Positions 1 through 40,831 of a stretch of DNA of 64,000 nt are shown here, in pieces. The stretch spans positions 1 to 64,000 of the forward strand of contig NZ_BMZT01000011.1 in NCBI RefSeq assembly GCF_014652935.1. The letters run 5' to 3'. Source of the DNA: Luteimonas padinae. Lineage in GTDB: Bacteria > Pseudomonadota > Gammaproteobacteria > Xanthomonadales > Xanthomonadaceae. A model generated the notes under the pieces. That model worked only from the letters and a program-made list of their open reading frames with translations. It did no database searches and was not told the origin of the DNA. Position 1 is the stretch's first letter; every line of letters starts with the position of its first letter. The position numbers and the translations under genes were made by a program.

Positions 1-960
1 CTGACGAACGTGTCCGTGACCGACGAGCTCGCGGGCCTGGGTGCGATCACCTACGCGTGGCCGGGTGCCGAAGGCGTGCTTGAAGCCGGTCAGAGTGTCA
101 CGGCCACCGCGACGTACGTTGTGACCGCGGCCGACGTGAACGCCGGCAACGTGCACAACAGCGCGACCGCTGAAGGCACGCCGCCTTCGACGCCGAGCAA
201 CCCGACGCCGCCGCCGATTACCACGCCCCCGGGCGAGGTGGATACGCCGATCGCCCAGGAGCCGGGTCTCAGCGTCCAGAAGTCGGTGACCTCGGCGGGC
301 CCGTACACCGAAGGCAGTGTGATCAGCTACCAGTTCGTGGTGGAGAACACCGGCGACGTGACGCTGACCAATGTGTCGGTGACTGACGCGCTGGCTGGCT
401 TGAGCACGATCACCTATGCGTGGCCGGGTGCCGAAGGCGTCCTGCTGGTGGGCCAGAGCGTGACGGCAACTGCGACCTACACGGTTACGGCTGCGGACGT
501 TAACGCAGGCAACGTGCACAACAGCGCGACCGCCGAAGGTACGCCGCCGTCGACGCCGACCAATCCGACGCCGACGCCGGTGGTGACGCCGCCGGGCGAC
601 GTCGACACCCCGATCGCGCAGAACCCGGCGATCGAGCTGACCAAGTCCGTGATCTCGACGGGCCCGTACAGCGAAGGTGACACCATCACCTATGAGTTCG
701 TTGTCGAGAACACCGGCGACGTGACGCTGACCGATGTGACGGTGATCGACGAACTGCCGGGCCTGAGTGACCTGACGTACGAGTGGCCCGGCGCTGAAGG
801 TGTGCTGCTGGTCGGCCAGAGCGTGACCGCGGTCGCGGCCTACGTCGTGACCCAGGTCGACGTGAACGCCGGCACCGTGCACAACGCGGCCATCGCCGAA
901 GGCACGCCGCCGGGTACGCCTGGCGAGCCCGCCACGCCGATCGTCTCGCCGCCTGGCGAG
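1..960 (+). repeat. Tandem 363-bp coding repeats (121 residues each)
   Basis: Units begin at 1, 364 and 727, each opening with LTNVSVTD or a variant (LTDVTVID). Each carries the blocks WPGAEGVL, GQSVTA and VHN-A-AEGTPP, followed by a Pro/Thr-rich spacer. Units 1 and 2 are very similar; unit 3 diverges after about base 960. More copies probably lie upstream of the window. Confidence 0.85.
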
Positions 961-3357
961 GCGGTGGTCGAGATCGAGACCGGTGCCAACCTGTCCATCC
1001 AGAAGGCCGTCGACAACGCTACACCCATCATCGGGGAGAACGTGGTCTTCACCCTCACGCTGCGCAATGCCGGTCCGGCGGACGCCACCGGCGTGGTTGC
1101 CACGGACGTGCTCGCCAGCGGCTACACCTTCGTGTCCAGCGCCGGCGACGGTGCCTACGACGCGGCCACCGGCCTGTGGACCATCGGCGACCTCGCCAAT
1201 GGCGGCGCCGCGAGCCTGTCGATCACGGTGACCGTCAACGCCACCGGCGACTACCGGAACACGGCCAGTGTCGACGGCAACGAGACCGACCCGGATCCGG
1301 AGGACAACACCGACGTGGTGACGCCGACGCCGATGCCCCGCATCGTGGCGATCGACGACCCGATGGGGGTCGTGGATGCCGGCACCGGTACCCGCAGCGT
1401 GCTCGGCAACGACACCCTGGGGCCGGATCCGGCCACGGTGCCGGAGGTCGTGCTGACCCCGGGCGTTCCCTCCCACCCGGGCCTGTCCATGAATCCGGAC
1501 GGCACCATAACCATCGCGGTGGACGTGCCTTCGGGGACCTACGAGTACCCGTACACGATCTGCGACGCGGCCAATCCGACCAACTGCGACACCGCGATCG
1601 CGACCATCGAGGTGGTGGGCAACCCGACGCTGCTGCGCGTGGTCAAGAGCGTCGCGACCCGCACCGTCAACATCGGCGACCTGGTCCGTTACACGGTGAC
1701 CGTGGAGAACATCGGCCTGGTGGACCTGATCGACGGGAACCTGGTCGATACGCCGCCGACCGGCTTCAGCTACGTCGAGGGTTCGATGTCGGTGCGTGAT
1801 GCCGACGGTGCCTTCACCCTGGCGCCGGGCCACCATCCGCTGCGGATCGGTGGGCTGGACATCGCCGCGGGCGAGGACGCGACCATCGTCTACCTGCTGC
1901 GGGTGGGTGCGGGCGTGCGCCTGGGCAGCCACGTCAACGAGGCGGTGGCCGTGGACGGGAGCGGCAACCCGATCTCCAACGTGGCGACTGCCGAAGTGAC
2001 GCTCGATGGCGATCCGATGCTGGACGACAGCCTGGTCTTCGGCACGGTCTTCGACGACCGCGACGGCGACGGCTGGCAGGATCGTGCCGATCTGGGCGGC
2101 GTGGCGGCGAGCGGCGGCTTCGCGCCGGGCGCCTACGTGGCCAACTCGACCACGATCGACACCGGCAACGGGCCGACGCCGCTGGCCGACGCCAGCTCGC
2201 CGCTGCTGCACGGCGTCGACGTTGGTGCGATCCGCGCCCGCGAGTCCGAGGCCGATCCGGCTCCGACGGTGGTGATCCGCCAGCGCCTGGGCGCGCTGGA
2301 GTTCACCGACGGCTTCGTGCTCACAAGCGCCCAAGGCGTCACCGTGCGCATGGCGGCCGACGGCACGACCCGCATCGAGCGCAGCGGCGATGCCGCCCGC
2401 GGCCTGAACGCCGCGGAGCCGGTGGTCGAGCGTCGCGTGTCCTCGGTGGAGGGCGGCTACGAAGTGGCCTACGTCATCTCCAACCAGGGCATCGACGAGC
2501 GCGGCATCCCCGGCGTGCGCATCGCCTCGGTGGAAGGCCTGCTGATCGAGACCGACCAGTACGGTCGCTACCACGTCCCCGACGTGCATGGCGGTGACTG
2601 GGGCCGTGGCCGGAACTTCATCCTGAAGGTCGATCCGGCGACATTGCCCGCGGGCACGGAGTTCACCACGGCCAACCCGCTGGTGCGCCGAGTCACCCCG
2701 GGCATCCCGGTGCGCTTCGACTTCGGCGTGAAGCTGCCGGTGCAGCTCGTGCCGGGTGGCCGTGAACAGGTCGAACTGGAGCTGGGCGAAGTTCTCTTCG
2801 CTCCCGGTAGCGCGGAGGTGCGCGAGGCCTATCTGCCCGTACTCGGGCGGGTGGCCGAGCGGATCAACGCCCATGACGGCGGCGAAGTCGTGATCACGGC
2901 CGACGGCGACAGCGAGGGCCTGGCCTTCGCCCGCGCCGGTGCGGTGCGCGATGCGCTGCAGCCGCTGGTGTCGGCCGAGGCGAGGGACGGGCTGCAGGTG
3001 GTCCTGCGCAGCCGGGTCGATGACCCGCACGCCCCGGTGATCGCCGGCGCGACCGCCAGCGGCGCCCTGCTGGGCACCGTGCTGTTCGACACCGACAAGT
3101 CGGCGATCCGGCCCGACTTCGAAGGCCTGCTCGACGCGGTGGCCGCGCGGCTCGATGCGCTGGACGGCGGCGTGGTGGTGCTGGTCGGCCATACCGATGT
3201 GCGGGGTTCGCACGCCTACAACGCGGCACTCGGCCTGCGGCGCGCCACCTCCGTGTACGAAGCGTTGCGCACGCGACTGCGGCCGGAGGTCCGCGAACGC
3301 GTGAGAGTGGAATCCAGTGGTGATCCGGCGGCTCCGACCGGGACGGATGCACGATGA
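1..3357 (+). CDS. DUF11-repeat surface protein with C-terminal OmpA-like domain (5' end outside window)
   Basis: The frame is open from the first base, so this is the 3' part (1118 codons) of a larger gene. Visible order: three tandem 121-residue DUF11-type units, the third diverged; a more classical DUF11 domain (about residues 329-445); an Ig-like segment with VLGNDTLG; another DUF11-like domain (about 540-670); a DDRDGDGWQD segment resembling SdrD/Cna-B type repeats; then a C-terminal OmpA-like domain (about 1020-1105) with LFDTDKSAIRP and GHTDVRGSHAYNAAL, the Asp/Arg signature of peptidoglycan-binding OmpA domains. A degenerate OmpA-like half (VLFAPGSAEVREAY) precedes it. DUF11 repeats are typical of long extracellular or periplasmic proteins; OmpA-like domains bind peptidoglycan. 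The stop overlaps the start of the next gene by ATGA, so the two are probably translationally coupled. A cell-wall-anchored surface protein or adhesin is an inference; the N-terminus and signal peptide cannot be seen. Confidence 0.8.
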   Translation: MTNVSVTDELAGLGAITYAWPGAEGVLEAGQSVTATATYVVTAADVNAGNVHNSATAEGTPPSTPSNPTPPPITTPPGEVDTPIAQEPGLSVQKSVTSAGPYTEGSVISYQFVVENTGDVTLTNVSVTDALAGLSTITYAWPGAEGVLLVGQSVTATATYTVTAADVNAGNVHNSATAEGTPPSTPTNPTPTPVVTPPGDVDTPIAQNPAIELTKSVISTGPYSEGDTITYEFVVENTGDVTLTDVTVIDELPGLSDLTYEWPGAEGVLLVGQSVTAVAAYVVTQVDVNAGTVHNAAIAEGTPPGTPGEPATPIVSPPGEAVVEIETGANLSIQKAVDNATPIIGENVVFTLTLRNAGPADATGVVATDVLASGYTFVSSAGDGAYDAATGLWTIGDLANGGAASLSITVTVNATGDYRNTASVDGNETDPDPEDNTDVVTPTPMPRIVAIDDPMGVVDAGTGTRSVLGNDTLGPDPATVPEVVLTPGVPSHPGLSMNPDGTITIAVDVPSGTYEYPYTICDAANPTNCDTAIATIEVVGNPTLLRVVKSVATRTVNIGDLVRYTVTVENIGLVDLIDGNLVDTPPTGFSYVEGSMSVRDADGAFTLAPGHHPLRIGGLDIAAGEDATIVYLLRVGAGVRLGSHVNEAVAVDGSGNPISNVATAEVTLDGDPMLDDSLVFGTVFDDRDGDGWQDRADLGGVAASGGFAPGAYVANSTTIDTGNGPTPLADASSPLLHGVDVGAIRARESEADPAPTVVIRQRLGALEFTDGFVLTSAQGVTVRMAADGTTRIERSGDAARGLNAAEPVVERRVSSVEGGYEVAYVISNQGIDERGIPGVRIASVEGLLIETDQYGRYHVPDVHGGDWGRGRNFILKVDPATLPAGTEFTTANPLVRRVTPGIPVRFDFGVKLPVQLVPGGREQVELELGEVLFAPGSAEVREAYLPVLGRVAERINAHDGGEVVITADGDSEGLAFARAGAVRDALQPLVSAEARDGLQVVLRSRVDDPHAPVIAGATASGALLGTVLFDTDKSAIRPDFEGLLDAVAARLDALDGGVVVLVGHTDVRGSHAYNAALGLRRATSVYEALRTRLRPEVRERVRVESSGDPAAPTGTDAR

Positions 3358-28288: not shown

Positions 28289-28338
28289 AGACGTTCGCAG
28301 TGGCGCCGAAGTGCAGGCGCCATGCACGGGGAGACACG

Positions 28339-28740
28339 ATGACGCAGGACCACAACCGCGCCGGCAGCCTGGAAGGCCTGCGCGTGATGGTGATCGATGA
28401 CTCGAAAACCATCCGTCGCACCGCGGAGACGCTGCTGCGCCGGGAAGGCGCCGAGGTGGTTACCGCCACCGACGGCTTCGAGGCACTGGCCAAGATCGCC
28501 GACCAGCGCCCGCAGATCATCTTCGTCGACATCATGATGCCGCGTCTGGATGGCTACCAGACCTGCGCGCTGATCAAGAACAACCAGCTGTTCAAGCAGA
28601 CGCCGGTGATCATGCTGTCCTCGAAGGACGGCCTGTTCGACAAGGCGCGCGGGCGCATCGTCGGCTCCGAGCAGTACGTCACCAAGCCTTTCACGCGCGA
28701 GGAACTCCTCGACGCGATCCGAACGCACGTCAACACCTGA
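28339..28740 (+). CDS. pilG: Twitching-motility response regulator PilG
   Basis: 133 residues, a single CheY-like receiver domain. Phospho-acceptor Asp64 lies in FVDIMMPRLDGYQ; the acidic pair is in VMVIDDSKTIRR and the conserved Lys in YVTKPFTREEL. In Pseudomonas and Xanthomonas, PilG is phosphorylated by the ChpA kinase and promotes type IV pilus extension and cAMP signalling. ATG 28339 follows GGGGAGA at 9 bases; an upstream in-frame start gives a non-conserved Arg-rich extension. First gene of the Pil-Chp operon, followed by pilH after 19 bases. Confidence 0.95.
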   Translation: MTQDHNRAGSLEGLRVMVIDDSKTIRRTAETLLRREGAEVVTATDGFEALAKIADQRPQIIFVDIMMPRLDGYQTCALIKNNQLFKQTPVIMLSSKDGLFDKARGRIVGSEQYVTKPFTREELLDAIRTHVNT

Positions 28741-28759: not shown

Positions 28760-29125
28760 ATGGCAAAGATCCTGCTGATCGAGGATTCGCCGACCGACAC
28801 CGCGGTGCTGACCCAGCTCCTCGAGCGCAATGGGCACGAGGTGATCGCGCGCGCCAATGCCGAGGACGGCATCGAGGCCGCCCGCGCCGAACTGCCCGAC
28901 CTCGTGCTGATGGACGTGGTGCTGCCGGGCATGAACGGCTTCCAGGCCACCCGCGCGCTGTCGCGCGACGCGGCGACCGGCCACATCCCGGTGCTGATCG
29001 TCAGCACCAAGGGCATGGAGACGGACAAGGCCTGGGGCATGCGCCAGGGGGCCCGCGGCTACGTCGTCAAGCCGCCCGTCGAGGCCGATCTGGTCGAGCG
29101 CATCAACGCGCTGCTGGGCGGCTGA
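28760..29125 (+). CDS. pilH: Twitching-motility response regulator PilH
   Basis: 121 residues, a single receiver domain beginning MAKILLIEDSPTDTAVL. Asp52 is the phosphorylation site (LMDVVLPGMNGF) and the conserved Lys is in GYVVKPPVE. PilH acts as the second CheY-like output of the Chp system, usually a phosphate sink or promoter of pilus retraction. The order pilG-pilH matches Pseudomonas aeruginosa. GGGGGGACAGG lies just upstream of ATG 28760. The next gene starts on the base after a single spacer nucleotide. Confidence 0.95.
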   Translation: MAKILLIEDSPTDTAVLTQLLERNGHEVIARANAEDGIEAARAELPDLVLMDVVLPGMNGFQATRALSRDAATGHIPVLIVSTKGMETDKAWGMRQGARGYVVKPPVEADLVERINALLGG

Positions 29126-29126
29126 A

Positions 29127-29681
29127 GTGGCCCGGCGCGACACCGTCCGCCGGGAGGAGCCCTTCGAGGTCCTCGCGGGCTTCGAACGGCGCAGCCTGGC
29201 GCACGTCGTCGGCCTGCCCGAGCAGCTCGATGCCCCGGGCCTGTGGCGCGGGGTCGGTTACCGCGTCGGCCAGCGCCTGCTGGCCTCGGGCTTCGACGAA
29301 GTGGTGGAAATCCTGCCGCTGCCGCAGCTCACGCCGGTGCCCGGCGCGCAGCCGTGGATGCTGGGCGTGGCCAATATCCGCGGCACCCTGCTGCCGGTGG
29401 TCGACCTGCGCCTGTTCCTGGAAGGCGAGCGCACGGTGATGCACGAGGGCCAGCGGGTGCTGGTGGTGCGCCAGCCGGGCGGCAACGTCGCGGTGACCAT
29501 CGACGAACTGTTCGGCCAGCGCAGCTTCCTGGAAGAGCAGCAGTCGTCGCACGAGGCCCTCGCCGGCGGGCGCTATTCGGGCTTCATCGATCGCGCCTAC
29601 AAGGTGGGCGGCCACGCATGGGGCGTCTTCAGCCTGGACCGGCTGTCGCGCACTCCGGAATTCAGACAAGCAGCGGCCTGA
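29127..29681 (+). CDS. pilI: CheW-like adaptor PilI
   Basis: 184 residues from GTG 29127, one base after the pilH stop. A CheW domain with the typical core [39 protein letters not shown] and [20 protein letters not shown]. PilI couples the PilJ receptor to the ChpA kinase. Translational coupling to pilH is likely given the one-base gap. Position and fold leave little doubt. Confidence 0.94.
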
Positions 29682-29712: not shown

Positions 29713-31734
29713 ATGAGCAACGTCATCGACAACGGAACCGGGAAGGCCCGGACCATCGGCGCCAAGGTCTGGATCTGGCTGCTGATCGCCTCGCTGGCGA
29801 TCTTCGCCGGCAACACGATCTACGCGATGACCAAGGCCTCGCGCCTGGGTGGCGCCAGTACCGCGGCCTCCAGCCTGCAGGTGAACTCGCAGCGCCTGGC
29901 CAACCAGGGGCGGGAGGCGGTCGACGGCAGCACCGAGGCCTACGCGGCGTTCAAGGCCACCAAGGCCGCCATCGACAGCGACATCCAGCAGCTGGTGGCC
30001 AACTTCGGCGACACGCCCGACGTCGCCGCCGAGATCCGCACCGTGGCCGCGACCTGGGAGCCGCTGTCGGCCAGCGCCGAGCAGGTGATCGCGTCCGAAG
30101 GCGCGGTCGTGGCCTTCGCCGGCAACGCCCAGCGCTTCACCCAGGCGGTGCCGCAGCTGCAGGCGCAGCTCGACGAGGTGGTGCGCGCGATGTCGGCGAG
30201 CGGCTCGCCGTCGTCGCAGATCTACATCGCCCTGCGCGAGGTGGTGCTGGCCTCGACCATGGCGCGCCGCGTCACCGAGATCCAGGCTGGCGGCGCCGCG
30301 GCGTCGGTGGCCGGCGATGCGCTGGCGCGAGACGCGGGCGTGTTCGAACAGGTGCTCACCGGCCTGCGCTCGGGCGACGAGGCGATGAACGTGCAGCCGC
30401 TGGCCAACGCCGGCGCCCTGGCCGCGCTGGCCCAGGCGACCACGCAGTGGGAGGAGATGAAGAAGGACCTGGACGCGATCCTGTCCAGCTCGCAGAACCT
30501 CTTCGGCGCGCAGACCGCCGCGGCCGCGCTGGCCACCGGCTCCAACAAGCTGCTGGCCGACAGCGAGTCGCTGTTCCAGGCGCTGACCACCTTCGGCTCG
30601 CTCAACGACACCTCGATCCTCGGCAACATCTGGATCTCGATCGTGTTCGGCGCGCTGGCGCTGCTGGCCATCGTCGGCTTGCTGCGCGAACTCAGCCGCG
30701 ACCAGCGCGTGCGCTACGAGACCACGATGGAGCTCAACAACCGCAACCAGGAGGCGATCATGCGCCTGCTGGACGAGATGGGCTCGCTCGCCGAAGGCGA
30801 CCTGACGGTGAAGGCGACGGTGACCGAGGACATGACCGGCGCCATCGCCGACTCGATCAACTTCGCCGTCGAGCAGCTGCGCAGCCTGGTGCAGACGATC
30901 AATGACACCTCCGTGCAGGTGGCGTCCAGCGCCCAGGAGACGCAGGCCACCGCCATGCACCTGGCCGAGGCCGCCGAGCACCAGGCGCAGGAGATCAATT
31001 CCGCCTCCGACCGCATCAACGAGATGGCGCAGTCGATCAATCAGGTGTCGCGCAACTCCGCCGAATCCGCGGACGTGGCGCAGCGCTCGGTGCAGATCGC
31101 GACCAAGGGCGCGGGCGTGGTGCGCGAGACGATCGCCGGCATGGACTCGATCCGCGACCAGATCCAGGAAACCTCCAAGCGCATCAAGCGCCTGGGCGAA
31201 AGCTCGCAGGAGATCGGCTCGATCGTCGAACTCATCAACGACATCTCGGAGCAGACCAACATCCTGGCGCTGAACGCGGCCATCCAGGCGGCGTCGGCCG
31301 GTGAAGCGGGCCGCGGCTTCGCGGTCGTGGCCGACGAAGTGCAGCGGCTCGCCGAACGCGCCTCGAACGCGACCAAGCGCATCGAGACGCTCGTCGAGAC
31401 CATCCAGTCCGACACCAACGAAGCCGTCAGCTCGATGGAGCAGACGACCTCCGAGGTGGTGGCCGGTGCGCGCCTGGCCGAGGACGCCGGCACCGCGCTG
31501 GGCGAGATCGAAAACGTGTCGACCAGCCTCGCGTCGCTGATTGAAGGCATTTCCAGCGCCTCGCAGCAGCAGTCCGCGGCGGCCTCGAACATCACCGAGA
31601 CCATGAACACGATCCAGTCGATCACCGCGCAGACCTCGCAGGGCGCCAACCAGACGGCGGCCTCGATCGGAAACCTCGCGCAGCTGGCGGCGGACCTCCG
31701 CCGCTCGGTCGCCGACTTCAAGCTGCCGGCCTGA
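29713..31734 (+). CDS. pilJ: Methyl-accepting chemoreceptor PilJ
   Basis: 673 residues. N-terminal transmembrane helix (about 17-36), a periplasmic helical region with duplicated PilJ-type four-helix segments, a second transmembrane helix (about 304-326, [20 protein letters not shown]), a HAMP domain (about 327-385) and the cytoplasmic signalling domain. The kinase-contacting tip is [20 protein letters not shown]. No C-terminal pentapeptide for methyltransferase tethering is present (it ends VADFKLPA). PilJ senses surface contact or pilin signals. It is followed directly by chpA with no room for pilK, the receptor methyltransferase found at this place in Pseudomonas. Confidence 0.96.
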
Positions 31735-31744
31735 TTCCAGTCCC

Positions 31745-34700
31745 ATGACGGCATTGCGCGACGCCATCGACTACACCACGCTCGGCTGGGTCAAGCCGGA
31801 GCTCGACGAGACCCTGCGCCAGGCGCGGATCGAGATCGAGGACTTCGCCGCCGACCCCACCGACACCAGCCGCATGCGCTTCTGCGCGGGCTACCTGCAC
31901 CAGGTGCAGGGCACGCTGCGCATGGTCGAGCTGTATGCGCCGGCGATGGTGGCCGAGGAGATGGAGCGCCTGGCCCAGGCGCTGCAGGAAGGCGCCGTGG
32001 CCGACCGCGACGGTGCCTGCGCGATGCTGATGCGCGGCGTGGTGCTGCTGCCCGACTATCTCGAGCGCCTGCAGAGCGGCCACAAGGACATCCCGATCGT
32101 CCTGCTGCCGCTGCTCAACGACCTGCGCGCCGCGCGCGGCGAGCCGGGGCTGTCCGAAAGCGTGCTGTTCGCGCCCGACCTGCAGCGTCCGCTGCCGGGC
32201 GACGTGCCCCGCGCCGCGGTCGCCAACGACCCGGTGCCGGTGCGCAACGCGCGCGCCCAGCCCTTGCTGGCCGACCTGCGCGCATCGATGGCCGCGTGGC
32301 CCGAGACCGGTGGCCCGGCCGACGCGGGCGCGCTGTCGGCCGCCCTCGGGTCGCTGCTCGACCATGTCCAGGCCGAGCCCGCGCGGCGCATGCTGTGGGT
32401 GGCGTCGTCGGTGGCCAGGGCCGTGGCCGATGGCGCGCTGCAGGCGACCCCGGCGCTGCGCCAGGCGTTTGCCAGCGTCGAGCGCGAATCGCGGCGGCTG
32501 TTCGAGGACGACGGCTTCGGCGTGCCACGCGCCGAGTCCGCGCTCGAGCCCACCCGCCAGCTGCTCTACCACGCCGCCCACGCGAGCGCGGACCACCCCG
32601 CGCTGCGTGCGCTGCACGACACCTTCGAGCTGCAGCGGCAGCTTCCGACCGACTCCGAGATCAGCCACGCCCAGGGCAGCATGAGCGGCCGCAACCGCGC
32701 GCTGCTCGACACCGTGGCCGCGGCCGTCAAGGAAGACCTGCTGCGGGTCAAGGACGCCCTCGACCTGCACCTGCGCACCGCCGAAACCGATCTGTCGCGG
32801 CTGGCGCCGCAGGTCGAGGCGCTGGGCCGCGTCGCCGACACGCTCGGCATGCTCGGCCTCGGCGTCGCGCGCGGCGTGGTGGACCAGCAGCGCACGGCGA
32901 TGGCGGACATCGTCGACGGCCGCAAGCCCGCCGACGAGGGCGCGCTGCTCGACGTCGCCGGTGCGCTGCTCTACGTCGATGCCACTCTGGACGATCAGGT
33001 CGCGCGCCTGGGCGCGGGCGACCAGGACGCGCCCGGGCAGGGCGATCTCGCCGCAGGCGAGGCCGACAAGGTGCTGGACGTGCTCGCGCGCGAGGCGATC
33101 GCCAACTTCGCGGACGCCCGCCAGGCCTTCGTCGCCTTCATCGAGACCGGCTGGGACCACGCCGAACTGGCCGAAGTGCCGCGCCTGCTGGGCGAGGTGT
33201 CCGGTGCGCTGCAGATGCTCGAGCTACCGCAGCCCGCCGCCTACCTGACCGGCGTGCGCCGCTACATCGAGGACGAGCTGATCGCCAGCCGGCGCGTGCC
33301 CAACGGCCGCCAGCTGGACACGTTCGCCGACGCGCTGGCGAGCCTGGAGTACTACCTCGAGGCGCTGCGCGAGCGGCGCTTCAACCGCGACGAGATCCTG
33401 GACGTCAGCCGCCACAGCCTGGAGAGCCTGGGCTACTGGCCGCTGCCGGCCGAACGCACGCCGGGTCAGGACGAGACCGAGGCCGCGGTGGCGCCGCCGA
33501 TGGTGAGCGAAGCCGACATCGAGCGCACGGTCGCGGCGCTGATCGACCGCGGCGGCGCCGGGTCCGCCGACGCGCAGGCGCCGCTCGCCGCGCAGCCTGA
33601 CGAAGCGCCCGCAGCGGCGGTGGGGGCCATCGCCGCGGCCGCGGGACAGGACGGCTTCGAGGCCACCGGCGACGAGATCGACGACGAGATCCGCGAAGTC
33701 TTCCTCGAGGAATTCGCCGAGGAGATCGACAACCTCGACCAGCTGCTGCCGCTGTGGCGCGCGCAGCCCGACGACGTGGAGCGCCTGCGGCCGATCCGCC
33801 GCGTGTTCCACACCCTGAAGGGCAGCGGCCGCCTGGTGGGCGCGCGCACGCTCGGCGAGTTCAGCTGGAAGATCGAGAACATGCTCAACCGCGTGCTGGA
33901 CGGCACGCGGGTGGCCAGCCCGGCCGTGGTCGCGATGGTCGACCAGGCGTTCTACACCCTGCCGCAGCTGCAGGCCGCGCTGCGCGGTGACGGCGCGGTG
34001 CAGGCCGACCTCGAGCGCATGCAGGCTTCGGCCGACCGCATCGCCGCCGGTGACGAGGCCATGCCCGACGAGGCCGCCGCCGCGTCCGTTTCCACCATAC
34101 CGGCCCTGTCCGCGCCGCCTGTGGTGGACGAGGAAGCAGCCGCCGACGGCGTCGAGGCCGTCGCCGACGCGCCGCAGCCCGAGGTCGAACTCGAGGCCGA
34201 TGGTGCAGGGGCGGTCGAGGCCGGTTCGCTGCCGGCAGGCGCCGCCGCGGAGGCCGTCATCGAGATGGTGCCGGCGTCGGTCGATGCGCTGCTGCTCGAG
34301 ATCCTCGACGCCGAGGTCACCGGCCACCTGGCGACCGTGGATGCGTGGATGGAGCGTGCCGCGGGCGGTGGTGCCGGGGCGTCCGAGGACCTGTTGCGCG
34401 CCTTGCATACGATGAACGGCGCGTTCGCGATGACCGAGCTGCCGACGGTCGCCCAGGCGCTTACGCCCGCGGAAGGCTATGTGCGCCGCCTGCTGGCGGC
34501 CGGGATCCCGGCGACGGGCGATGGCATCGCGGCCATCGGCGAGCTGGCCGCGATCACACGCGCCGCGATCGTCGGGCTGCAGTCGGCGACCCCGCAGGTG
34601 CCCGTTGCCGCCGCCCTGGCCGCGCGCCTGCTGGCGCTCCGGGACAGCCTGCCGGAGCCGGCGCCGCTGGACTTCGAGGCGATGGCCGCGGACGCGACCC

Positions 34701-37700
34701 ACGCGGACGAGGCGGTCGCCGACCTGCCTGGAGCGCAGCTGGTCGACATCGACCTGAGCGAGTACGCGGGTTTCGGCACGGTTGCTGCCGACGGCGACGT
34801 GGACCGGGAGGCTGCCGCGCAGGCCGAAGCGGACGCGGAAGCCGAGCGCGCAGCGGCGGAGCGCGCCGAAGCCGAACGTCTCGAAGCGGAGCGGCTTGAA
34901 GCCGAGCGCATTGAGGCGGAGCGTCTCGAGGCGGAACGTGTTGAAGCGGAACGCCTTGAATCCGAGCGCCTCGAAGTCGAGCGTCTCGAAGTCGAGCGTC
35001 TCGAAGCCGAGCGTCTCGAAACGGAGCGTCTCGAAGCGGAGCGTCTCGAAGCGGAGCGTCTCGAAGCGGAGCGGATTGAAGCAGACCGCCTTGAAGCGGA
35101 GCGGATTGAAGCAGACCGCCTTGAAGCGGAGCGGATTGAAGCAGATCGCCTTGAAGCGGAGCGGATTGAAGCAGACCGCCTTGAAGCGGAGCGGATTGAA
35201 GCAGACCGCCTTGAAGCGGAGCGGATTGAAGCAGACCGCCTTGAAGCGGAGCGGATTGAAGCAGACCGCCTTGAAGCGGAGCGGATTGAAGCAGACCGCC
35301 TTGAAGCGGAGCGGATTGAAGCAGACCGCCTTGAAGCGGAGCGGATTGAAGCAGACCGCCTTGAAGCGGAGCGGATTGAAGCAGACCGCCTTGAAGCGGA
35401 GCGGATTGAAGCAGACCGCCTTGAAGCGGAGCGGATTGAAGCAGACCGCCTTGAAGCGGAGCGGATTGAAGCAGACCGCCTTGAAGCGGAGCGGATTGAA
35501 GCAGACCGCCTTGAAGCGGAGCGGATTGAAGCAGACCGCCTTGAAGCGGAGCGGATTGAAGCAGACCGCCTTGAAGCGGAGCGGATTGAAGCAGACCGCC
35601 TTGAAGCGGAGCGGATTGAAGCAGACCGCCTTGAAGCGGAGCGGATTGAAGCAGACCGCCTTGAAGCGGAGCGTTTCGAAGCCGAGCGTCTTGAGGCGGA
35701 ACGGCTTGAAGCAGACCGTCTTGAAGCCGAACGCCTCGAAGCCGAGCGTCTGGAGGCCGAGCGCGCCGAGTCGGAGCGTATCGAGTCGGAGCGCGTCGCA
35801 GCCGAACGCGCCGAGATGGCGCGCCTGGAACAGGAGCGCCTCGAAACCGAGCGCCTCGAACAGGAGCGCCTCGAACAGGAGCGCCTCGAACAGGAGCGCC
35901 TCGAACAGGAGCGCCTCGAACAGGAGCGCCTCGAACAGGAGCGCCTCGAAGCCGAGCGCGCCGAAGCCGAGCGCCTGGAGCTCGCCGAGCTCGAAGCCCG
36001 GATCCTCGAACTCGAACGCCTCGAGGCCGAGCGTCTCGAGGCCGAACGTCTCGAAGCGGAGCGTCTGGAAGCCGAGCGGCTTGAAGCCGAACGCATGGAG
36101 TTCGAGCGCCTCGAGGCCGAGCGCCTGGAAGCGGAGCGGGTCGAAGCCGAGCGCATCGCCGCCGAGCTCGCCGAAGCCGAGCGTGTCGAGGCCGAACGTC
36201 TCGCCGCCGAACGCGCCGAAGCCGAGCGTGTCGAGGCCGAACGTCTCGCTGCCGAACGCGCCGAAGCCGAGCGCCTCGCCGCCGAGCGCATGGACGCCGA
36301 GCGCGCCGTCGCCGCGGCCAGCGCCGCGATGCTGGCCGCGATCCCGGCCGACGAGGACCCTGACGCCGAATTCGATTTCACTGGCCTGGACACCGAGCTG
36401 GTCGACATCTTCGTCGAGGAAGGCCGCGACCTGCTCGACCACTCCGACGGCCTGCTCGCGAAGCTGCGCGAATCGGCGGACGACCGTGAATCCCTGGTCG
36501 GCCTGCAGCGGGACCTGCATACGCTCAAGGGCGGCGCGCGCATGGCAGGCGTTTTCGCCATCGGCGAACTCGGGCACTCGATGGAGTCGCTGCTCGAGGC
36601 GGTCTCGGAGCAGCGCTTCGACCTGTCGCGCAGCGACGTGCCCCTGCTCGAGCGCGGCTTCGACCGCCTCCACGCGATGGTCACGCGCGTCGGCGAGCGC
36701 CGCGCGATCAGTCCTTCGCAGGCGCTGATCGATGCCTTCGACGCCCGCGCCCGCGGCGAGGAGCTGTCCGCCGAGGCGCTGTCGGCGCCTGCGCAGCGCG
36801 TGCCCGCGCCGGTGGTCGAGCTCAAGCCGCTGACCGCGCCGATCGCCGATCCGCTCCAGGGCGACGAGGACGACATCACCGTCCGTGCGCCACAGGAGCA
36901 GGTGCGCATCCGCGCCGACCTGCTCGACCGCCTGGTGAACTACGCCGGCGAGGTGGCCATCTACCGCGCGCGCCTCGAGCAGCAGCTTGGTGCCTTCCGC
37001 GGCGCGATGGGCGAGATGGAGCAGACCAACATGCGTCTGCGCGACCAGCTCCGCCGCCTCGACATCGAGACCGAAGCGCAGATCATCGCCCGCTACCAGC
37101 GCGAGCAGGAGACCGCCGACGCGACCTTCGACCCGCTCGAGCTCGACCGCTTCTCGACCCTGCAGCAGCTCTCGCGCGCGCTCGGTGAGTCCGCGGCCGA
37201 CCTCTCGAGCCTGCAGGGCACCCTCGACGACCTGACCCGCCAGTACGAGACCCTGCTGCTGCAGCAGTCGCGCGTGAGCTCGGAGCTGCAGGAAGGCCTG
37301 ATGCGCACGCGCATGGTGCCCTTCGATTCGCTGGTGCCGCGCCTGCGCCGCGTGGTGCGCCAGGCGGCGTCGGAAACCGGCAAGCACGCCCAGCTCAGGC
37401 TGGACGGCGCCCAGGGCGAGCTCGACCGCAACGTGCTCGAGCGCATGACCGCGCCGCTGGAGCACATGCTCCGCAATGCCGTCGCGCACGGCCTGGAGAA
37501 GCCGGGCGCGCGTCGCGACGCCGGCAAGGCCGACGAGGGCACGGTGCGCATCTCGGTGCGCCGCGAAGGTTCGGAAGTCGTGCTGGAAGTCGCCGACGAC
37601 GGCAGTGGCCTCGACCGCGATGCGATCCGTCGCCGCGGCATCGAGCGCGGCCTGCTGCGCGAGGACGCGGTGCTGGCCGATGGCGACCTCGACACCCTGA

Positions 37701-38698
37701 TCTTCCAGCCCGGTTTCTCCACCGCCGACGAGGTCAGCCGCCTGGCCGGCCGCGGCGTCGGCATGGACGTGGTGGCCAGCGAAGTCCGCCAGCTCGGCGG
37801 CGCGCTCGACATCGCCAGCCAGCGCGGCAAGGGCACGACCTTCACCATGCGCCTGCCGCAGACGCTGGCGGTGACGCAGGCGGTGTTCGTCAAGATCGGC
37901 GAGACCAGCTTCGCGGTGCCGATCGCCTCGGTGCGCGGCGTGGGCCGCATCGCCCGCGAGGACTTCGAGCGCGAGGGCGCCAGCTACTCCTACGGTGGCG
38001 AGGACTACGCCGTGCACGACCTCGGCGGCCTGGTCGGCCATGCCTCGGCGCGCGCCGAGGGCCATCTGCAGATGCCGCTGCTGCTGATCCGCTCCGGCGA
38101 CCTGCGCGTCGCGGTGGCGGTGGACCAGATCACCGGCAACCGCGAGATCGTGGTGAAGCCGGTCGGCCCCCAGGTCGCCTCGGTGCCGGGCATCTTCGGC
38201 GCGACGATCATGGGCGACGGCGGCGTGGTGGTGATCCTGGACATCGCGCCGCTGGTGCGCCGCCAGCAGGTCGCCCTGCCGCGCGATGCCGCGCCGGGGG
38301 AGACGCCCGAGCAGCGCCGCGTGCCGCTGGTCATGGTGGTCGACGACTCGATCACCATGCGCAAGGTCACCGGGCGCGTGCTGGAACGCCACAATTTCGA
38401 GGTCTCCACCGCGAAGGACGGCCTCGACGCGCTGGAGCGCATGGCCGAGCGCGTGCCCGACCTGATGCTGCTCGACATCGAGATGCCGCGCATGGACGGC
38501 TACGAGCTGGCCACCGCGATGAAGGGCGACCCGCGCCTGCGCAACGTGCCGATCATCATGATCACCTCGCGCACCGGCGAGAAGCATCGCCAGCGCGCGT
38601 TCGAGATCGGCGTCGAGCGCTACCTGGGCAAGCCCTACCAGGAGAACGAGCTGCTGCGCAACGTCAACGACCTGCTGAAGACCGCCCGCCATGGCTGA
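31745..38698 (+). CDS. chpA: Hybrid chemosensory kinase ChpA/PilL with giant Glu-Arg-Leu repeat
   Basis: 2317 residues. The N-terminal third has Hpt-like bundles: a degenerate one with His52 ([11 protein letters not shown]), a canonical Hpt with His689 ([12 protein letters not shown]) and a variant with His888 (LHTMNGAF). A roughly 500-residue Glu/Arg/Leu/Ala repeat (about 1023-1525) follows, then an Hpt with His1592 ([12 protein letters not shown]), the CheA dimerisation part, the ATPase ([28 protein letters not shown]), a CheW-like domain (about 2040-2176) and a C-terminal receiver with Asp2244 ([13 protein letters not shown]). It phosphorylates PilG and PilH under PilJ control. Pseudomonas ChpA has a similar size but reaches it with more Hpt domains; here much of the length is repeat. 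The stop overlaps the next gene by 8 bases. Confidence 0.96.
35071..35670 (+). repeat. Twenty tandem 30-bp units in chpA
   Basis: Twenty consecutive 30-bp units, each encoding the ten-residue block [10 protein letters not shown] in register. I found a single deviation, a C-to-T in the third unit (35131-35160). The unit length is a multiple of three, so gain or loss of units stays in frame. Flanking DNA (34811-35070 and 35671-36317) encodes the same kind of pentapeptide repeat in diverged codons. Confidence 0.95.
35855..35944 (+). repeat. Six tandem 15-bp units (LEQER) in chpA
   Basis: Six consecutive CTC GAA CAG GAG CGC units encode LEQER repeats. It is a second, independently homogenised array inside the same low-complexity region, about 185 bases after the 30-bp array. 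Confidence 0.9.
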
Positions 38699-40334
38699 GG
38701 ACGGAGGCCAGGCCGTGCGCGTGCTGCTGCTGGCCCGCGAGGGCGAGGCCAGGCAGCGCCTTGAATCGGCGCTGGCCGATGCCGGTGCCGAACTGCTGCG
38801 CTCGGTCGACCCGCAGGATGGCGATCCCGACGAGGCGGTCGCCCTGCGTCCGGGCGCCGTGCTGGTCGCGCTGGAGCCGGCGATCGAGGATGCGCTGGAG
38901 CGCTACGACGCGCTGCTGTCGGATCCCGGCGTGCTGGTGATGTTCGACGAGGCCGAGGTGGCCGCGCGCCGCGACGGCTGGGATGCCGCACGCTGGGTGC
39001 GCCACCTGGCGGCGAAGCTCAATGGCCACGCGAACGTGCTGCCGCCGGGGGCCGGGTCCGAGGACGCGGTGCATCCGGTGCCGGGCGGCCTGCCGGAACG
39101 GGAATTCGATCCGGAGAGCGTCGACGTCGGTGCGCTGGCCGATGCGGCGCATGAACTGGCGACGGACGTGCCGCGCGCGGGCGACTTCGACGCGCCGTCC
39201 GCCGATGAGCCGTTCTCCGCGACGTCGCCGACCGACGGGCCGCCGGCCGATGGGGCGCCCTTCGAAGAGTCCTCCGGCTTTACCGGCCTGCTCGCCGCGG
39301 AGGACATGGACTGGTCGTCGGGCGGTGCGGACGAGCTCACGCTCGCCGAGGATCCCGCGCTGGCGGAACTGCTTGCCAGCACCTCCGCATCGCGCGGCAG
39401 CTACGACGGGGCCGACGCGCCCGAAGCCGTGCAGGGCCTGGACGAAGTCCTCGCGCCCGGGCCCGGCGGCGGCCAGGCTGCGGATCTCCACGGCGCCGGC
39501 GTCGACGCTCCCGGCGAGCCGGAAGCGCCGGCCCGCGAAACGCCCGCGCCGGACGTGCGCGACCCGCTGTCGCTCGGTGACGGCCTGTCGCTTGCCGATG
39601 ACGACGCGCCGCTGTCCGTCCGCGACGCCACCGCTGCGGTCGATCTCGAGGCGCTCGAGTCGCGCCTCGATGGCCTGTCGCTGGCCGACGACGACGCGGG
39701 ACCGATCGGCAGCCGCGACGCCGACAGCGGCGCCATTGATCTCGACGCGCTGTCGTCGCGCCTGGACAGCATGTCGCTGGTGGATCCGGACAGCTACGGC
39801 CACGGCCAGCTCCGCGGCGCGGTGATCGTGGAAGCGGGGCTGGGTGGCCCCGACGCCGTCCGCCAGCTGCTTGCGGGCCTCGGCGAGGCGTTCGCGCGCA
39901 CCGTGCTGGTGCGGCTGCAGCTCGACGGCGGCCGCTACGACCGCCTGGTGCAGCAGATGCAGCGCGCCAGCGTGCTGCCTGTGCAGCTGGCCGAAGCCGG
40001 CGGCGCAGCCGAAGCCGGCACCGTCTACTTCCTGCCGCCGGGCATCACGGTGGTCGAGGACCGCGCACGGCTGCGGTTCGCCGATGCCGATGACGGCCGC
40101 GCCACCGGCTATGACGCACTGCCTGCCGCCGACAGCGCGCTGGTCTTCCTGAGCGGCGCCAGCGTCGACCGCGTCGAGCGCGCGACGGCGATGGCGGACG
40201 CCGGTGGGCTGTTGCTCGCCCAGGCTCCGGAGAGCTGCTACGACGGCGCCGCCGTGACCGCGCTGGTCGCGCGCGGGGCCGTGTCCGCCGAGCCCGGCGA
40301 CCTGGCCCAGGCCTTGGTCGACCGTTGGCCCTGA
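38691..40334 (+). CDS. Degenerate CheB-like protein of the Pil-Chp operon (ChpB position)
   Basis: 547 residues. The N-terminus (about 8-105, [20 protein letters not shown]) resembles a receiver fold without the phospho-acceptor Asp ([11 protein letters not shown]). The middle is acidic and low-complexity with two copies of [10 protein letters not shown]. The C-terminus (about 370-547) aligns by eye with CheB methylesterase: [17 protein letters not shown] against the GASTGG motif, [20 protein letters not shown] against the EAEDGE...PG-AYIAP part, and [14 protein letters not shown] against AGA-T-AQ-E-SC. The catalytic Ser is Gly and the catalytic His (QHM) is QLD, while the Asp is retained (SGASVD). 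Probably no longer an esterase; a structural or signalling role is inferred. It overlaps chpA by 8 bases. Confidence 0.8.
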
Positions 40335-40345
40335 CGAGATCCCAC

Positions 40346-40831
40346 ATGAATTCCACTGCCATCCAGGACATCCGCGGCGTGCTCATCCAGGTCGAGGGCG
40401 CGCGCCTGCTGCTGCCCAACGCCACGATCGCCGAAGTGCTGTCCTACGCCGATCCCGAACCGGTGGCCGACGCCCCGCACTGGCTGCTGGGCCGCATCCG
40501 CTGGCGCGGCTGGCAGCTGCCGCTGGCCTCGTTCTCGCGGCTGTCCGGCATCGCCGAGGAGGCTGGCGGCCTGGGCAGCAAGGTGGTGGTGCTCAAGGCC
40601 CTGGGCGGCGATGCACGCCTGCCCTACGTGGCGCTGCTGACCAAGGGCTTCCCGCGCCTGGTCACGGTGTCGCGCGAGGCCCTGGTGGCGAACGCCGGCG
40701 AGGGCGATGGCGAAGGTGCGGAAGCGCTGCCGCCGTGCGTGCTGATGCACGTGCTGCTCAACGACGAACCCGCGCTGCTGCCCGACGTCGACGCAATCGA
40801 GGGCGCGATCCGCGAGGCGCTGGCGGCCTGA
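40346..40831 (+). CDS. chpC: CheW-like protein ChpC
   Basis: 161 residues. A CheW-type domain: VLIQVEGARLLLPNATIAEV, WLLGRIRWRGWQLPLASFSR and SKVVVLKALGGDARLPYVAL. In Pseudomonas, ChpC is a second adaptor that may link other receptors to ChpA. ATG 40346 lies 11 bases after the preceding stop; an earlier TTG at 40325 would overlap that gene and is less likely. Last gene of the operon, convergent with rsmE. Confidence 0.88.
   Translation: MNSTAIQDIRGVLIQVEGARLLLPNATIAEVLSYADPEPVADAPHWLLGRIRWRGWQLPLASFSRLSGIAEEAGGLGSKVVVLKALGGDARLPYVALLTKGFPRLVTVSREALVANAGEGDGEGAEALPPCVLMHVLLNDEPALLPDVDAIEGAIREALAA

Follow-up and report, generated by a model that had tools for sequence, protein, structure and literature searches.

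What does a long run of nearly identical 30-bp units do inside the reading frame of a chemosensory kinase gene, and how far can its apparent length be trusted? This is the question raised by chpA of Luteimonas padinae. The window, that is, the whole stretch of DNA that we analyzed, comprises 64,000 nt, and the genes and repeats of the chp locus described here lie on its + strand. The chpA gene (31745–38698) encodes a type IV pilus chemosensory kinase of 2317 aa in which Pfam detected Hpt (three stretches), HATPase_c, CheW, and, at the C-terminus, Response_reg; the H-kinase_dim match, at 21.5 bits, fell just under the 23-bit cut-off. NCBIfam CheA models also matched the protein with scores under their cut-offs, so the name chpA rests on domain architecture and on the adjoining genes, both of which agree with the identification made in a preliminary description of this DNA. 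Upstream are genes for two receiver-domain proteins of the PilG/PilH type (28300–28740, with a putative start codon, and 28760–29125; Pfam Response_reg), a PilI-like CheW protein (29127–29681; Pfam CheW), and the pilus chemoreceptor PilJ (29713–31734; Pfam MCPsignal and PilJ). Downstream are a ChpB-like, CheB-type methylesterase gene (38691–40334; Pfam CheB_methylest) and a gene for a ChpC-like CheW protein (40325–40831; Pfam CheW). The locus thus has both the domains of the ChpA class (several Hpt domains, HATPase_c, CheW, and a C-terminal receiver) and its operon partners (two receiver proteins, CheW proteins, and PilJ). ChpA is thought to steer bacterial surface crawling. As far as the P. 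aeruginosa protein is described in PMC12632253 and PMC10782961, it too is a multi-Hpt, CheA-like kinase of the Pil-Chp system with a CheY-like receiver in cis, but it has eight to at least nine phosphotransfer domains, whereas Pfam found three Hpt stretches here and the protein has a long repetitive spacer in addition.

Some features of the surroundings are recorded here in their own right. The pilJ gene is followed directly by chpA (31734–31745), with a gap too small for a CheR (PilK-like) gene. In the CheB-like protein (547 aa), the methylesterase match is confined to residues 378–531, with no receiver match and about 370 N-terminal residues without a match. At the start of the window (1–912), a 363-bp unit is present in about 2.5 copies at 77% within the ORF at 10–3357, perhaps representing surface-protein domain repeats.

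The repeat block of chpA lies between the second and third Hpt domains, whose putative phospho-His codons are at 34406–34408 (His 888, assigned by an HTMNG motif and the Hpt stretches) and 36518–36520 (His 1592, HTLKG motif). Its homogeneous core is a tract of 20.4 units of 30 bp, each encoding 10 residues, at 35063–35673 (aa 1107–1310). Perfect period-30 identity runs from 35063 to 35145 and from 35147 to 35673 and is interrupted only at 35146, where T replaces C in a synonymous change (GAC to GAT). The twenty units originally reported at 35071–35670 are therefore borne out, 19 being identical and one carrying a single difference, and the tract extends slightly past those limits. The tract is also in frame within the 2317-aa ORF of the kinase gene, as had been stated. 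Tandem Repeats Finder delimited wider arrays around the tract (34868–35727, 28.7 copies at 92%, and 34838–36304, 48.9 copies at 84%), which identifies it as the core of a larger array. The unit table resolves this array into 98 consecutive 15-bp units, most of them encoding EAERL-like pentads (34838–36307, aa 1032–1521). To the right of the 30-bp tract is an EADRL pentad (35708–35722) that differs by one base from the amplified half-unit and resembles a seed. Farther right, a 15-residue seam that does not follow the pentad pattern interrupts the block (35978–36022); by motif match, it was present in four of 46 genomes, the others being G008, G040, and G004. The flanking pentads had been described as drifted, which is true of most of them but not of a second homogeneous tract in the right flank, a perfect 102-bp run of a 15-bp unit encoding EQERL (35849–35950), found both in the unit table and through repeated 83-mers. 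No second locus with this repeat was detected in the genome: a 636-bp query gave four matches, every one of them inside chpA.

We compared the tract with a null model in which the protein was kept and its codons were sampled anew from the remainder of the block (2000 draws). The longest perfect period-30 run was 527 bp in the observed sequence, compared to a mean of 57 bp and a maximum of 95 bp in the redraws, indicating that homogeneity at the DNA level exceeds the demands of the protein pattern, far beyond chance. The tract also differs in composition: its G+C content is 59.8%, whereas the remaining block has 69.1% and the window 71.6%. Each 30-bp unit contains one GCA, one CTT, and one ATT codon, which account for 2.9, 2.7, and 1.9% of synonyms, respectively, in a background of chpA outside the block and six other window ORFs, some of which are only putative genes. 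Elsewhere in the block, CTT makes up 14.6% of 41 Leu codons and ATT two of five Ile codons, both less rare than in the background, so the unusual codons partly characterize the block as a whole. The rare codons of the unit would fit a copying event blind to codon quality and too recent for smoothing. Among 57 pentad units outside the 30-bp tract, which are mutually dependent, pN/pS was 0.36, and the residue pattern of the pentads seems to be kept by selection. Hairpin-driven slippage was considered and set aside, since 90-nt pieces of the tract gave z values of 0.11 and −0.28 for the two strands, folding no better than shuffled sequences, and two pieces taken outside the tract but inside the block did no better (z 0.41 and −0.10). 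Long ORFs, antisense or out of frame, across the repeat region were taken to be by-products of the high G+C content of the window.

We then placed the spacer in the context of the genus, using 52 genomes including this one (G000), with one genome per species. A kinase-core query gave some match in all 52, and the chpA core was recognized in 51, the best match in G011 being only receiver-like. The spacer could be measured in the 46 genomes in which both anchors were present; excluded were G011, G034 (whose contig starts in the core), and G002, G003, G022, and G038 (whose contigs end inside the spacer). The median spacer was 323.5 aa long, with extremes of 119 and 535 aa; for genomes in which the left match ended early, the spacer end was extrapolated to a shared column, and motif-based His-His distances repeat the measure without this step. 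At 532 aa, the L. padinae spacer is second to that of G009, which has 535 aa and no long perfect run, so its length is high but not unique, and homogeneity is what stands out. The motif-based distances (n = 46 each) had a standard deviation of 93.0 between the second and third His, compared to 15.1 from the N-terminus to the first His, 15.0 between the first and second, and 4.4 from the third to the end; length variation is mainly local to this spacer.

At least nine EAERL pentads were present in 42 of the 46 genomes. The remaining four (G007, G028, G036, and G042), which form one clade on the core tree, have three or none, indicating that an EAERL-type helix is not essential. Near the same place, the chpA genes of G007, G036, and G042 contain repeats with a 6-bp period in place of EAERL pentads (Asp-Thr in G042, listed as L163, at about aa 984). 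Over periods of 6 to 120, the longest perfect runs were 527 bp here, 256 bp in G043, 227 bp in G019, and 164 bp in G030. The long amplified units, 17.6 copies of 30 bp after the break in L. padinae, 17.1 of 15 bp in G043, and 15.1 of 15 bp in G019, differ between species in codons and period, suggesting that amplification has probably occurred more than once; short runs share a unit in several species. The exact 30-bp unit was absent from chpA of the other 45 measured genomes, and EADRL, which occurs 21 times here, was found one to three times in the chpA proteins of G017, G020, G021, G024, G037, and G040. Among 80 further loci picked by core similarity, of which 12 had a spacer that could not be delimited, partly because of cut contigs, abundant EAERL-type pentads were found in Montanilutibacter psychrotolerans (current name; L035, 36 pentads), L059 (16), and L064 (28), the other 77 having three or fewer. 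The Xanthomonas/Stenotrophomonas loci (L036–L041) have 334 to 635 aa of other sequence at this position, with a slightly different left anchor. Tandem runs were also seen in chpA-like genes outside the genus, including perfect runs of 132 bp (L058, period 54) and 131 bp (L100, period 51) and a perfect 101-bp run (L067, period 45) in a Glu-rich stretch of AEEEV type. We found no prior report of a chpA repeat in the part of the open-access literature that we searched.

The closest relative, G008, provides a time frame for the tract. Its chpA core is 97% identical to that of L. padinae, and over the C-terminal third of the gene the two differ with a DNA identity of 0.959 across 2325 bp and a dS of 0.134. 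G008 has neither the 30-bp unit nor an EADRL pentad, and its spacer is shorter by 180 aa, indicating that expansion or homogenization took place later than the split of the two lineages. The 180 aa correspond to 18 units of 30 bp, although this is a net figure, and its agreement with the size of the tract may be partly luck, since the left half differs in other places as well. A tract dating from the split should have gathered 9.9 synonymous changes on this branch, whereas one was seen (P = 0.00053), in line with the original proposal of very recent expansion or active homogenization, two processes that are indistinguishable from the present sequence. This dating depends on the assembly, which could have created likeness between units.

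We next considered the likely structure of the encoded spacer. An AlphaFold2 model of residues 1005–1551 alone, from the single sequence, placed helices at 17–199, 214–336, and 340–526 of 547 (mean pLDDT, 79.2; pTM, 0.26). Of the two weak breaks, 200–213 and 337–339, the former is located within the uniform tract and is thus probably not real. The spacer is 56% charged, with 185 opposite compared to 96 like charge pairs at i+3/i+4 (z = 8.3 against 100 shuffles). At 100 degrees per residue, the hydrophobic moment over 180 aa of the tract was 0.000; at 102.86 degrees it was 0.015, and 18-residue windows averaged 0.081. The zero moment follows from the strict repeat, and these values cover straight helix geometries. 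Since Leu/Ile recurs every five residues, no hydrophobic stripe forms on a straight helix, and with no stripe at either angle a canonical coiled coil was rejected. High charge, opposite i+3/i+4 pairs, and the lack of a hydrophobic seam are the sequence marks of a single alpha-helix, and the spacer is probably a charged helix of this kind. In the account of single alpha-helix (SAH) domains in PMC5347031, such domains are likewise Glu/Arg-rich, with i+3/i+4 pairs, no hydrophobic seam, and a predicted long helix, but are typically 40 to about 200 residues long, whereas the ChpA block has 490 residues, repeats every five, and carries Leu or Ile at most of the fifth positions. The SAH label is uncertain because the same source reports that Arg-rich designed sequences aggregated. 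It gives a persistence length of about 15 nm; 490 residues at 1.5 Å each would span about 70 nm, so the whole would behave as a semi-flexible tether.

The nearest known parallel is tolA of Escherichia coli, in which, as reported by Zhou et al. (2012; PMC3477136), the number of 15-bp repeats in a helical region is altered by recombination, with rearrangement at about 6.9 × 10⁻⁵, contractions that are mostly RecA-aided, and an effect of unit number on stress tolerance; TolA domain II is described as predominantly alpha-helical (PMC12204202). The chpA block likewise consists of in-frame repeats in multiples of 15 bp (98 pentads of five codons, with periods of 15 and 30 bp) that encode a predicted helix, and changes in number keep the frame. 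In the portion of PMC3477136 that bears on this comparison, tolA units are individually distinct and number eight to 16 per natural strain, in contrast to 20 near-identical units here, where a 30-bp double pentad has been amplified and the host protein is a signaling kinase. Strain variation, RecA dependence, and phenotype have been measured for tolA, whereas the chpA repeat is known from sequence and between species only. No TolA model was among the five Pfam families of ChpA, which sets the two proteins apart by Pfam alone; the likeness would be one of mechanism, not membership.

We consider it likely that the pentad block is a length-tolerant, helical EAERL spacer under repeat turnover and that the 30-bp tract is its newest patch, not a demonstrated switch. 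Separating the N-terminal Hpt domains from the last Hpt domain and the kinase core, the spacer may act as a tether or as a rod, a single alpha-helix that would be stiff over about 100 residues, keeping the phosphotransfer modules joined yet apart while tolerating large changes in length. By analogy with tolA, recombination between near-identical repeats would gain or lose whole pentads, so that frame and helix would survive, and the reach between Hpt modules would be altered. A 30-bp double pentad with codons rare in neighboring genes appears to have been amplified recently in this lineage. The effect of this amplification on signaling is most likely small. Spacing is tighter elsewhere in the protein and free here, which suggests that the presence of the spacer matters more than its length, and the simpler reading, that the spacer tolerates length change, fits the long, different sequences that other genera of the family hold at this position.

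Other roles for the block seem less plausible. It is doubtful that the pentads form a coiled coil or a protein-binding platform and not a monomeric spacer: long charged helices are often given that name, and the tolA repeat region is termed an extended coiled-coil domain in the relevant part of PMC12505904, but a Leu or Ile every five residues leaves no stripe on a straight helix, and neither the length nor the sequence of the spacer is conserved. A contingency locus, in which unit number would switch within a population and tune twitching or phosphoryl flow under selection for hypervariability, is an unlikely explanation as well. The preliminary description leaned in this direction, predicting length differences between strains that might tune twitching motility. 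Perfect in-frame repeats this long are expected to be unstable, the tolA precedent combines rearrangement with a phenotype, and wide length variation is concentrated in the spacer; a neutral, length-tolerant spacer predicts an identical pattern, however, and in the 11 of 46 genomes that are single contigs, which is no proof of long reads, the longest perfect run was 164 bp, indicating that long homogeneous tracts are not regular in the genus. A related reading, a hypermutable helical ruler in which recombination would change the number of double pentads, reset the reach from the N-terminal Hpt modules to the kinase/receiver core, and so create heritable variation in pilus signaling output within a population, much as tolA repeats affect stress tolerance, we regard as quite improbable.

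There is about an even chance that the tract exists but that the assembler estimated its length, the true unit number being perhaps clearly smaller or larger, a reading that is compatible with a length-tolerant spacer. The single 16S match found in the genome is on a contig of 5,260 bp. Exact 83-mers link one end of this contig to C1 and C10 and the other end to C4 and C12, and in 16 of the 40 listed contig-end pairs the number of shared 25-mers is exactly 59, the value expected from one shared 83-mer; twelve small contigs (C24–C35), N throughout, were left out of this comparison. These observations point to a short-read de Bruijn assembly with k = 83 and collapsed rRNA. Repeated 83-mers in the window are confined to the two perfect tracts, and the 527 bp from 35147 to 35673 contain 30 distinct 83-mers in 445 positions, so at this k the unit number is most likely the inference of the assembler and was not read through. 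The distance from the start of the tract to the T at 35146 is 83 bp, equal to k. Of the 46 genomes, those with the three longest perfect tracts (G000, G043, and G019) are multi-contig assemblies, and contig ends fell inside the chpA spacer in four of 52 genomes compared to 1.0 expected (P = 0.011), or 0.69 expected without G011 and G034 (P = 0.0035), in a post hoc test with rounded genome sizes and a single spacer length for all. The earlier warning that the array is prone to misassembly was thus well founded. Against this reading, the window contains no Ns, and a 30-bp cycle at k = 83 needs a perfect run of about 113 bp, so at least about four perfect units should be real.

We conclude that the chpA tract is real and recent and is well explained as a tolA-like, intragenic helical tandem repeat in a chemosensory kinase. 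Even if the repeat is neutral, chpA length is unreliable in short-read genomes of this genus. The 46 orthologues, with spacers of 119 to 535 aa, are a resource for asking how far an Hpt domain can sit from its kinase. If unit number does vary within a species, ChpA would join TolA as a natural, recombination-reset helical spacer, in this case within a signaling kinase, and natural variants could then show how phosphorelay output depends on spacer length.
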